From Alphaproteobacteria bacterium (GTDB lineage: Bacteria > Pseudomonadota > Alphaproteobacteria > Micavibrionales > Micavibrionaceae), in assembly GCA_030427385.1 (NCBI GenBank), contig JAUHWR010000001.1, positions 1,426,001 through 1,490,000 on the forward strand: 64,000 nucleotides of DNA. Direction: 5' to 3'. This document shows, one piece after another, positions 9,802 to 39,961 of the stretch; the stretch's first letter is position 1, and each line of letters starts with the position of its first letter. Position numbers and translations under genes: made by a program. The notes under the pieces are model-generated. The model made no database searches. It saw nothing but the letters and a program-made list of their open reading frames with translations, and had not been told where the DNA came from.

Positions 9802-10131
9802 ATGAAAAAACAAATTTACTTTGTTATATTTACATTTCTTTTAATGGGGTGTGGAGATGATCCTGGTGCTTTTAAAGCTGGATCTAAAGTTTTTGGTACC
9901 GATTTAGTAATGCTAGAAGATGTAAAAGATTTTTCTATACTTGAGGACTGTACTAAAATTTTAAAAGAAAAAACTGCGGAATACGGCATTAATGTTGATT
10001 TTGAACAATACAATAAGAAAGAAATGAGTATCGTCTCTGGAACAGATAAAAATGATGTTGAATATTTAAATAATTGTATGAAAAGTAAAAATAATAATTA
10101 CCTTTTACGAATAGCTAAAAAAGAGGCATGA
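9802..10131 (+). CDS. Small predicted lipoprotein inserted in the atp operon
   Basis: This is an unrecognised protein of 109 residues. It starts with a lipoprotein signal: a short basic start (MKKQ), a hydrophobic core (IYFVIFTFLL) and a lipobox-like LMGC with Cys at residue 17, followed by GDDPG. The mature part is charged and Lys/Asn-rich, with two further cysteines (in EDCTKIL and NNCMKS). The coding sequence is visibly more A+T-rich than atpD or atpC. The ATG comes two bases after the atpD stop, so translation is probably coupled. Its location implies co-transcription with ATP synthase, but no role can be assigned. The lipobox is not ideal (Met at -2). Confidence 0.7.
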   Translation: MKKQIYFVIFTFLLMGCGDDPGAFKAGSKVFGTDLVMLEDVKDFSILEDCTKILKEKTAEYGINVDFEQYNKKEMSIVSGTDKNDVEYLNNCMKSKNNNYLLRIAKKEA

Positions 10132-36622: not shown

Positions 36623-37330
36623 TTATGCTGAGGCGATGGCTTTCACATTTTCCTCTTGCGGGTCGCGTAAAACATAACCACGCCCCCAAACGGTTTCAAT
36701 GTAATTATCCCCATCTGCGGCATCTTGTATTTTCTTACGAAGCTTACAAATAAAGACATCGATAATTTTAACTTCCGGCTCGTCCATACCGCCATAAAGG
36801 TGGTTTAAGAATTGCTCCTTGGTAAGTGTGGAGCCTTTACGAAGTGATAACAGCTCCAAAATACCATATTCTTTTCCGGTTAAATGTAATGGCTTTCCAT
36901 CCACATCAACGGTACGCGAATCAAGATTCACACGAACCTTTCCGGTGACAATCTCACTATGGGCGTGCCCTTGAGAGCGACGAACAATGGCCTGTATCCG
37001 TGCAACCAATTCCGCTTTGTCGAACGGCTTAATCAGATAATCATCAGCGCCTAACCCAAGTCCCTTAATTTTATCTTTAATATCGGACAGACCGGAAAGA
37101 ATTAAAATCGGTGTCTCAATTTTGGCGGAACGCAGATTTTTTAAAACCTCATACCCGTCCATATCCGGTAACATCAAATCCAGAATCACAATGTCGTAAT
37201 CATATATCTTGGCAATCTCCTCGCCGTCCTCCCCCATATCCGTGGTATCAACCACGTATCCTTGGCTTTTCAGCATTAATTCAATGCTTTTTGCGGTGGC
37301 GCTGTCATCTTCTATGAGCAATATACGCAT
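36623..37330 (-). CDS. ctrA: Cell-cycle response regulator CtrA
   Basis: CtrA is the alphaproteobacterial master regulator of cell cycle and flagellar genes. The 235 residues match the Caulobacter protein along their length: receiver domain [20 protein letters not shown] with phospho-acceptor Asp51 ([15 protein letters not shown]), and an OmpR-type winged helix containing [40 protein letters not shown] and [13 protein letters not shown]. The last residues (KAIASA) are Ala-rich, as in CtrA proteins degraded by ClpXP, although the exact AA end is not present. It is preceded by an array of TTAA half sites. Confidence 0.97.
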
Positions 37331-37364
37331 AAATATTTTCCCCTTGGTTAAATCATTTCAAATT

Positions 37365-37428
37365 TTAATGATTATTAAACTTTATTAAATTAATATTAAC
37401 AAAGGATTAAGATCTTAACAATTATTAA
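37365..37428 (-). promoter_or_regulatory. Array of CtrA-type TTAA half sites before ctrA
   Basis: TTAA occurs at 37365, 37375, 37385, 37390, 37396, 37407, 37415 and 37425 (and again at 37348). The trio 37385/37396/37407 is spaced 11 bases apart, exactly the known CtrA consensus TTAA-N7-TTAA(C). This supports autoregulation of ctrA. The region is also A+T-rich, so some copies may be chance. Confidence 0.65.
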
Positions 37429-37455
37429 TATTTAGTGATTCTCTTGATAAGAAAG

Positions 37456-38541
37456 TTATCTGGATGCCTGTAAATTGTCATAAGAATTACCAACCTCCGG
37501 CGAACTATCCAAGCCAATTAAACGCCGCCCATCCGCACCAAGTCGGTATCCCACTCCTATAACTGTCTCTATGACATTAGAATAGCCCATTTCGGTGAAT
37601 GGTTTGCGAATATCTGAAATACGCGTCTTAACAAGCTCTCGTTGACATTTCTCGTCATTAATATGCTTATGTACTGCCATTTTAGAATACAGGTCCTTGT
37701 GCGAAAAAATACGCTCACTATTTTTAAAAAAAAGCATTAAAAGCCTCATACCAAAAGGTTGAGGTAAACTATTAAACCTAATTTCTCTGTCATCACATCT
37801 AATTTTTCCATCTTTGTAAAATTGCAACCTTCCTAATTCTGCAATGGCCTGATTAGCTGTTTCATCATTATAGAATACAAGCCCCCGCCCCCCGGCTTTA
37901 CCATGCAATTGAGGAAAGATATGATCATATGTTGTTTCATTCTTTATTAATTTTCTCATTTTACAGATTTGAACGCCAACTGAATCTGAACAAGTATCAC
38001 TTGATGCTGATATTATAGAAGGAAGAATGTCTCTGGAAAATTGCATACTATCACTATTCAACATTAAATGCGTTGCAATTCGCATTTGTTGGGGCATCAA
38101 TATCACTTCTTTTTTATTTATATTAATCCCCCTCTTTAAAACGCGCCTTTCAATTCTCTGCATCAAATCTAATTCAACGGGAACGCCCCCTGTCACACAC
38201 CTCAAAACAGTCTCGTCATCAAATCCGTAATTTGCGGCGACTTCACACAAAGTTGAGCGCACAAACTCTTCAGACAACTCTGCGCAATGTGACGGATCAA
38301 TTAACTTGACTACTCGTTTCGTGCCAAACGGCAATTCCGATGAAAAACAAAGATCACGCAGGCCATCGACCAATATCGCGGCATAGGCCTTATCATCAGC
38401 TAAATAAAGGCCTATTTCTTCACTCGGATCCTCAGGCATCTCTTCATCAATAACGGGATCCACGACCCAGTTAAAAGCCTCAAAAAGCTCTTGCGTTCTT
38501 AAGGCACTCTCATCAGAGGCCGCCCAGTGTAATACCTTCAT
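37456..38541 (-). CDS. Atypical regulator with two winged-helix domains and a degenerate receiver-like N-terminus
   Basis: A 361-residue protein immediately upstream of ctrA on the same strand. Residues 1-120 resemble a receiver fold (MKVLHWAASDESALRTQELF, YAAILVDGLRDL with Asp59) but lack the acidic pocket. Residues about 145-225 and about 245-335 both look like OmpR/PhoB-type winged helices: the first has KKEVILMPQQMRIATHLML, SDSVGVQICKMRKLI and GGRGLVFY; the second has PFGMRLLMLFFKNSERIFSH, ELVKTRISDIRKPF and VIETVIGVGYRLG. Two DNA-binding domains in one chain are unusual for this family. It is probably a cell-cycle or motility regulator working with CtrA; the targets are unknown. It is divergent from fliI. 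Confidence 0.7.
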   Translation of the reverse strand: MKVLHWAASDESALRTQELFEAFNWVVDPVIDEEMPEDPSEEIGLYLADDKAYAAILVDGLRDLCFSSELPFGTKRVVKLIDPSHCAELSEEFVRSTLCEVAANYGFDDETVLRCVTGGVPVELDLMQRIERRVLKRGININKKEVILMPQQMRIATHLMLNSDSMQFSRDILPSIISASSDTCSDSVGVQICKMRKLIKNETTYDHIFPQLHGKAGGRGLVFYNDETANQAIAELGRLQFYKDGKIRCDDREIRFNSLPQPFGMRLLMLFFKNSERIFSHKDLYSKMAVHKHINDEKCQRELVKTRISDIRKPFTEMGYSNVIETVIGVGYRLGADGRRLIGLDSSPEVGNSYDNLQASR

Positions 38542-38635
38542 TTTTAGTCACGCCCATTCTATTTTTTGTAATTTTACAGAACTCTCCCTCAAAATCAATT
38601 TTTATTATTGTTCTATTAAAGGCATACTATAAATT

Positions 38636-39961
38636 ATGACCCGCCTATTTGAAAAATCTTCCGCAGCCCTTAATGCTTTACCCGGTTTTGAAATTTATGG
38701 ATCGGTGACAAAAGTTCTTGGATTGCTTGTGGAGATAGCAGGTTTTCCGGAGAGTTTGGCTGTGGGAGCGCATGTTCATCTTCGCCCGAGCGACTCTTTA
38801 AACATTCCGTGCGAGGTCATTGGCTTTCGTGATGAACGCGCCCTTCTCCTGCCTTTTGGCACATTGGAAGGCGTTGGCCTTGGCTGCAAGGCTTTTATAC
38901 AAAGCAACCAGCCCGTCTTCTATCCGGATGAAAGCTGGCTGGGGCGCGTGATCAATGCGCTTGGTGATCCCATTGATAATAAAGGTCCGTTGCGTCATGG
39001 CGCGCTACCCATCCCTTTAAAAAACAAACCGCCGCCGCCGCACATGCGGCAAAGAATGGGCGGACAGCTAGATTTGGGCGTACGCGCGGTTAATACCTTT
39101 CTGGCAACCTGTCAGGGGCAAAGAATGGGGATCTTCGCGGGATCCGGCGTTGGTAAATCGGTTTTACTATCAATGATGGCACGCTACACAGAGGCCGAAG
39201 TCGCCGTAATTGGTCTGGTCGGTGAACGCGGACGGGAGGTGCAAGAATTTTTAGAAGATGATCTGGGGGTAGATGGCCTGCAAAAATCCGTAGTCATCGT
39301 GGCGACAGGGGATGAGCCCGCCCTAATGCGCCGTCAAGCTGCCTATATGACGCTATGCGTTGCCGAATATTTCCGCAATCAGGGAAAAAATGTTCTTTGT
39401 ATGATGGATTCTGTAACTCGTTTTGCCATGGCACAGCGCGAAATCGGATTATCCGCAGGGGAGCCCCCCACATCGAAAGGCTACCCCCCCACTACATTTG
39501 GCGAACTTGCACGATTATTGGAACGCGCAGGCCCCGGCGGGCAAGGGCAAGGTAATATTACCGGCATCTTTTCCGTTCTGGTGGAGGGGGATGACACGAA
39601 TGAGCCGATCTCCGATTCCGTGCGCGGGATTATTGACGGGCATATCGTCATGGACAGATCGATTGCTGATCGCGGGCGCTATCCCGCCATTGATATCCTA
39701 AAATCCATTTCCCGCGCCCTGCCAAAGGCCCTTAACGCCGATCAAAACGCCACCTTGAAACGCGCAAAACAGATTATCTCAACCTATGAAGACATGGCGG
39801 AACTCATCCGTTTGGGTGCTTATCGACGCGGCTCTGACAAAGCAGTGGACGAAGCCATCCAGATTTATCCGCAAATCGAAGACTTCCTAACACAAGATAA
39901 AGATGATAGCACCACAATCGAGGAAAGCTTTAAACTCTTAAAGGCAATCGTTAATGGCTAA
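38636..39961 (+). CDS. fliI: Flagellum-specific ATPase FliI
   Basis: FliI drives delivery of export substrates to the flagellar type III apparatus, with FliJ. The 441 residues include the Walker A loop GIFAGSGVGKSVLLSMMARY (about 163-182), VIGLVGERGREVQEFLED, the Walker B region NVLCMMDSVTRFAMAQREIG and PPTSKGYPPTTFGELARLLE, the last highly typical of FliI and T3SS ATPases. The ribosome site is weak (aaagg, 13 bases before ATG). fliJ follows with an eight-base overlap. It is divergent from the tandem winged-helix gene. Confidence 0.95.
   Translation: MTRLFEKSSAALNALPGFEIYGSVTKVLGLLVEIAGFPESLAVGAHVHLRPSDSLNIPCEVIGFRDERALLLPFGTLEGVGLGCKAFIQSNQPVFYPDESWLGRVINALGDPIDNKGPLRHGALPIPLKNKPPPPHMRQRMGGQLDLGVRAVNTFLATCQGQRMGIFAGSGVGKSVLLSMMARYTEAEVAVIGLVGERGREVQEFLEDDLGVDGLQKSVVIVATGDEPALMRRQAAYMTLCVAEYFRNQGKNVLCMMDSVTRFAMAQREIGLSAGEPPTSKGYPPTTFGELARLLERAGPGGQGQGNITGIFSVLVEGDDTNEPISDSVRGIIDGHIVMDRSIADRGRYPAIDILKSISRALPKALNADQNATLKRAKQIISTYEDMAELIRLGAYRRGSDKAVDEAIQIYPQIEDFLTQDKDDSTTIEESFKLLKAIVNG

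Follow-up and report, generated by a model that had tools for sequence, protein, structure and literature searches.

The window (the whole 64-kb stretch of DNA that was analysed) comes from a 2.19-Mb genome in 3 contigs. Between ctrA (36623-37330, minus strand) and the divergent fliI (38636-39961, plus strand) it contains a gene of 361 codons with an ATG start (37456-38541, minus strand), which we refer to as the orphan gene. ctrA was identified with the NCBIfam model NF045991 (403.9 bits against a cut-off of 350). fliI, which anchors the junction, is an open reading frame named after an earlier sequence-only reading of this DNA; its relatives are 63-89% identical, and most of the best named ones are MAGs under the label Alphaproteobacteria or Micavibrio. 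Since the NCBI taxonomy places the genus Micavibrio in Bdellovibrionota, we refer to the group simply as Micavibrio-like alphaproteobacteria. The open reading frames and the CtrA match bear out the location that the reading had given for the orphan gene. The gene is delimited by its open reading frame and by Pfam domains that lie in this frame, and the other five frames of 37456-38541 hold 13-51 stops each. The encoded protein has a receiver-sized N-terminal domain followed by two OmpR-type winged helices. We conclude that this is a real gene that encodes two predicted OmpR-type winged helices.

The orphan gene is on the same strand as ctrA and 125 bp upstream of it. The stretch separating them showed no terminator-like site, so read-through from the orphan gene into ctrA is possible. 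Its GC3 (0.356) is within one standard deviation of the mean of the 71 open reading frames of the window (0.39, sd 0.06). Its codon score of -0.015 is lower than the scores of all 15 neighbouring genes compared (0.007 to 0.152), and this atypical codon use is also compatible with a young, foreign or decaying gene.

Domain composition of the orphan protein

Pfam Trans_reg_C matched the whole chain in two stretches (E = 3.7e-12, 46.6 bits). The first winged helix spans residues 136-222 (37876-38136, minus strand) and is delimited by Pfam, an OmpR-family HMM, a structure model, Foldseek and a PDB comparison. The second spans residues 245-334 (37540-37809, minus strand) and is delimited by Pfam and the family HMM. 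The sequence-only reading had proposed a profile search of the two halves separately. The half from residue 236 to 361 alone exceeded the Trans_reg_C cut-off of 26.2 bits (E = 1.2e-7, 32.1 bits), but residues 120-235 alone stayed below it (E = 0.001, 19.6 bits). The NCBIfam PmrA model also matched residues 132-200 (E = 4.8e-4), far under the cut-off of that model.

We also used an OmpR-family HMM made from 142 response-regulator open reading frames, with eight open reading frames (the protein and its look-alikes) excluded. With the whole chain this HMM gave 24.6 bits at residues 136-214 and 32.3 bits at residues 245-334; with the cut pieces it gave 28.7 bits for the first winged helix and 36.1 bits for the second. 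No shuffled sequence reached the real scores (1000 shuffles per piece, of which 809 and 801 were scored, the best at 5.9 and 11.0 bits). The first winged helix is in the register of a normal response regulator, with residues 136-214 aligned to model positions 138-216. The claim of two winged helices in one chain is thus upheld: the second is over the Pfam cut-off, and the first is under it yet above all shuffles and complete in the model described below. The accompanying claim of one such domain per regulator agrees with the rest of this genome, where seven further Trans_reg_C places were found at E ≤ 0.1, all without a second winged helix. The same genome also encodes a 176-aa protein (L266, G000:C1:1674716-1674940) in which a winged helix is joined to a short N-terminal part unlike a full receiver.

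Both winged helices are basic (pI 9.3 for the first and 9.4 for the second), as are both recognition helices, and the N-terminal domain has a pI of 4.2. The conserved end of the first winged helix is altered, with HGKAGGRG where CtrA has WGRGY. In the set tested the best relatives differ between the two, being L051 and L052 for the first winged helix and L002 and L033 for the second. An internal duplication was considered and rejected, since the first and second winged helices score only 0.4-0.6 bits against each other. A stretch shared with CtrA (ICK-x-RK) raised the idea that the first winged helix came from CtrA; this too was rejected, with 12.7 bits for a CtrA-only profile versus 25.4 bits for a profile of other regulators. 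For the second winged helix the values are 7.2 and 43.2 bits, respectively, and the orphan protein is not among the 14 matches of the NCBIfam CtrA model at E ≤ 1.

An AlphaFold model of residues 1-230 was made with an alignment of 36 response regulators, which favours that fold. In this model the first winged helix is complete at residues 138-221, in the order strand-strand-helix-helix-recognition helix-wing hairpin, and over residues 141-220 the block means of pLDDT are 79-93 with this biased alignment. Foldseek matched the modelled domain to PhoP, PrrA and KdpE. In the PDB comparison it matched the CovR domain with Z 13.3 at 2.0 A over 96 residues, tied with other rows within 1 Z, and the top rows were OmpR-family proteins and DNA-binding domains. 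An alignment-free AlphaFold model of the whole chain had a pLDDT of 31.

The N-terminal domain (residues 1-118; 38188-38541, minus strand) was delimited by the lack of a Pfam match, a shuffle-like score, its charge and the biased model. It is very acidic, with a net charge of -16. Residues 1-125 matched no Pfam family at E ≤ 10, Response_reg included, and residues 1-120 scored -2.4 bits with the OmpR-family HMM, a value equalled or exceeded by 360 of the 719 scored shuffles. With the receiver-biased alignment, residues 2-58 were modelled as strand-helix-strand-helix-strand (block means of pLDDT 58-80) and residues 59-135 mostly had a pLDDT under 50. The start of the domain is thus only half-receiver-like in this biased model, and the receiver-like N-terminus proposed earlier is not supported, there being no profile signal for it. 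By eye, alanines 7 and 8 can be read as occupying the positions of the acidic pair, and aspartate 59, just after the third strand of the model, as standing where the phosphorylated aspartate would; a MAFFT alignment places the region otherwise. As a comparison, in excerpts from a study of pseudo-receivers the second acidic position has a non-acidic residue in approximately 80%, and approximately 65% retain the aspartate (PMC12632262). The same excerpts define a pseudo-receiver as a receiver identified by computation that lacks the catalytic residues (PMC12632262). The orphan protein is outside this definition, with no receiver identified by Pfam, NCBIfam or the OmpR-family HMM.

Distribution and origin of the orphan gene

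We searched for relatives at several taxonomic distances. Of 142 genomes of the order, 10 had a match at E ≤ 0.01; one is the own genome, and in the other nine the match is confined to the second winged helix. In a sample of the class there were matches in 17 of 385 genomes: the own genome, 14 that hit the second winged helix, and two weak ones that are partial (residues 119-278 and 156-267) and interrupted by stops. The sequence-only reading had proposed a check for homologues next to ctrA in related genomes; neither the other 141 genomes of the order nor the other 384 of the class sample yielded a full-length homologue. There were no relatives in the genome contig or viral contig collections, and among phages and plasmids the matches listed (20 of 30 plasmid records) cover the region of the second winged helix. 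The N-terminal two thirds used as a query matched 12 of 135 genomes of the order at E ≤ 0.1, own genome included. Three of the 11 weak matches were opened; two are ordinary response regulators and the third is in no single open frame, and we do not count these three as homologues.

In a congener (G001), ctrA (97% identical) and the start of fliI are on one contig and separated by a 153-bp junction that has no such gene. DNA similarity between the two species breaks at 37434 and 38629, with approximately 1194 bp on our side versus approximately 32 bp in the congener. Given that the junction is empty in the congener although both flanking genes are there, comparison of the two junctions makes the orphan gene a lineage-specific insert of approximately 1.2 kb (37435-38628). 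The gene seems to have been added locally and recently rather than to be a standing partner of ctrA. Insertion by a mobile element was also considered and rejected; the repeats in 37330-38700 are short and mostly imperfect, and none was seen pairing the insert ends.

To place this insert in context we collected 121 distinct divergent ctrA-fliI junctions from relatives in the order and from other alphaproteobacteria. Junctions that are broken by contig ends or exceed the fetched flanks are absent from this set, so that large inserts are undercounted in the following sizes: 75 junctions are up to 300 bp, 15 are 301-600 bp and 31 are above 600 bp. Five of the large junctions have regulator-like genes. 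Two of these are clearly OmpR-type (the orphan gene and a CtrA paralogue in G008) and three are marginal with the regulator profile (G043, 9.6 bits; G088, 5.0 bits; G055, 3.9 bits). The remaining junction genes are diverse. All five regulator-like genes are codirectional with ctrA. We rejected this as a signal, since in 19 of the 31 large junctions every listed gene has that direction; one junction is mixed. These data indicate that the ctrA-fliI junction is a variable site at which genes appear to turn over.

The G008 paralogue (L184 594-1448) is a 284-aa protein, 39% identical to CtrA, with a Pfam receiver (39.4 bits) and one Trans_reg_C stretch. Its receiver is weakened, reading WPI where CtrA reads KPF. 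The G043 and G055 genes (L173 978-1877 and L174 344-1378) occupy the same junction in one genus and are approximately 25% identical, with a faint winged-helix signal. Their proteins are mutually related (phmmer E = 8.9e-10 and 5.9e-9), and we read them as a fast-changing positional pair.

DNA upstream of ctrA

A ladder of TTAA half-sites lies upstream of ctrA (37365-37428) and contains five pairs with N6 or N7 spacing. In excerpts from a published description the CtrA motif has N7 spacing, with working variants of 6 bp (PMC6180460). Successive rungs are spaced by 10, 10, 11, 11, 8 and 10 bp, and a further TTAA falls between two of them. TTAA-N7-TTAA occurs at four sites in the 64 kb, an unremarkable count (chance mean 3.6), and two of the four overlap inside the 125 bp between the orphan gene and ctrA. 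In 5000 Markov simulations of a 125-bp stretch, at least two such sites occurred in 0.4% and five N6/N7 pairs in none. The congener, which is without the orphan gene, has four N6/N7 TTAA pairs before ctrA (L143 315-368). The ladder is thus found in both species of the genus, its half-sites spaced in most cases by about a helical turn, and it looks like a multi-site arrangement for CtrA autoregulation. Upstream of the orphan gene (38542-38635) there is no TTAA-N6/N7-TTAA, and one lone TTAA is at 38616.

Discussion

The orphan protein shares an OmpR-type winged helix with the OmpR/PhoB response regulators, the first one in their normal register, and differs from them in having two winged helices and no recognisable receiver. 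Pairing of OmpR-family proteins is normally receiver-driven. In the atypical regulators ChxR and RitR there is one DNA-binding domain per protein. The orphan protein would resemble these two in acting without aspartate phosphorylation, but their pseudo-receivers, in the excerpts seen, are recognised by computation and its N-terminus is not (PMC12632262). With CtrA and the G008 paralogue it shares place, direction and the OmpR-type winged helix, whereas that paralogue clearly resembles CtrA, with a Pfam receiver and a single Trans_reg_C stretch. Among the titles and starts of abstracts listed we found no description of a tandem OmpR-type regulator, and the titles listed on Micavibrionales regulators included nothing on such a protein. 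We suggest that the orphan protein is a new variant of OmpR-type DNA-binding architecture and, because no receiver was recognised, we do not class it among the response regulators.

We consider it only slightly more probable than not that the orphan protein is a phosphorylation-independent DNA-binding protein of which one chain grips two subsites. Independence from phosphorylation is plausible, solely from the absence of a recognisable receiver. If both winged helices bind DNA, one chain would hold two adjacent subsites, and this grip would come without phosphorylation-driven dimerisation. The acidic N-terminal domain could serve oligomerisation, receive a signal from a partner or ligand, or mask the basic DNA-binding faces. 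The most economical guess for the targets would be the gene's own upstream region, the AT-rich region before ctrA, or both. The two profile matches, the complete first winged-helix model, the missing receiver match, the opposite charges of the winged helices and the N-terminus, the empty congener junction and the absence of a full-length homologue are all consistent with this. Against it, the first winged helix is below the Pfam cut-off and may be structural only, its model is biased by the response-regulator alignment while the alignment-free whole chain has very low pLDDT, and the codon score is under those of all neighbours compared.

That same codon score, together with the empty congener junction and the lack of full-length homologues, would also fit an accessory gene that is young or decaying and without a settled role, as one of the many unrelated genes that come and go in this variable junction; most of the 31 junctions over 600 bp among the 121 have no regulator-like gene. 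This is a serious possibility that we nonetheless rate lower, given that drift would erode 361 open codons, two winged-helix patterns and basic recognition helices. Somewhat less probable is a variant of the two-subsite reading in which the second winged helix alone binds DNA, the first having degenerated into a spacer or serving as a module for dimerisation; the sub-threshold score and the HGKAGGRG end point this way, but the first domain as modelled is complete with a wing hairpin and has a basic recognition helix and a pI of 9.3. It is improbable that the protein is a dedicated phosphorylation-independent CtrA partner acting on the TTAA ladder, as the sequence-only reading had it: the shared strand, the 125-bp distance with no terminator-like site, the half-sites in the gap and, in one relative, a clear CtrA paralogue at this position would suit this, but the congener has a similar ladder without the gene, a search of 141 further genomes in the order gave no full-length homologue, no full CtrA box precedes the gene, and both winged helices score higher with the profile of other regulators than with that of CtrA. 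Adjacency is the sole basis of a CtrA partnership, which is not supported.

If, as the two-subsite reading has it, DNA is bound by both domains, a single chain without phosphorylation would stand in for the receiver-driven pairing of OmpR-family proteins, and the role of receiver dimerisation would become directly testable. If the gene is merely transient, the finding is a minor one. The ctrA-fliI junction also emerges as a site of apparently fast gene turnover beside a cell-cycle master regulator. Because the remaining junction genes are diverse, the idea of the junction as a nursery of regulators is offered as a suggestion only. A bolder form, which we think quite unlikely, is that the junction of Micavibrio-like alphaproteobacteria would be a nursery of fast-evolving regulators, codirectional with ctrA and with degenerate or no receivers. 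The orphan protein would be an extreme case from it: two winged helices in one chain that, needing neither phosphorylation nor dimerisation, would read the TTAA ladder in cis, so that ctrA would be tuned differently in each lineage.

Elsewhere in the window, a 109-codon open reading frame (9802-10131) directly follows an apparent ATP synthase beta gene; it is very AT-rich (28% GC) and has a lipoprotein-like signal at its start.
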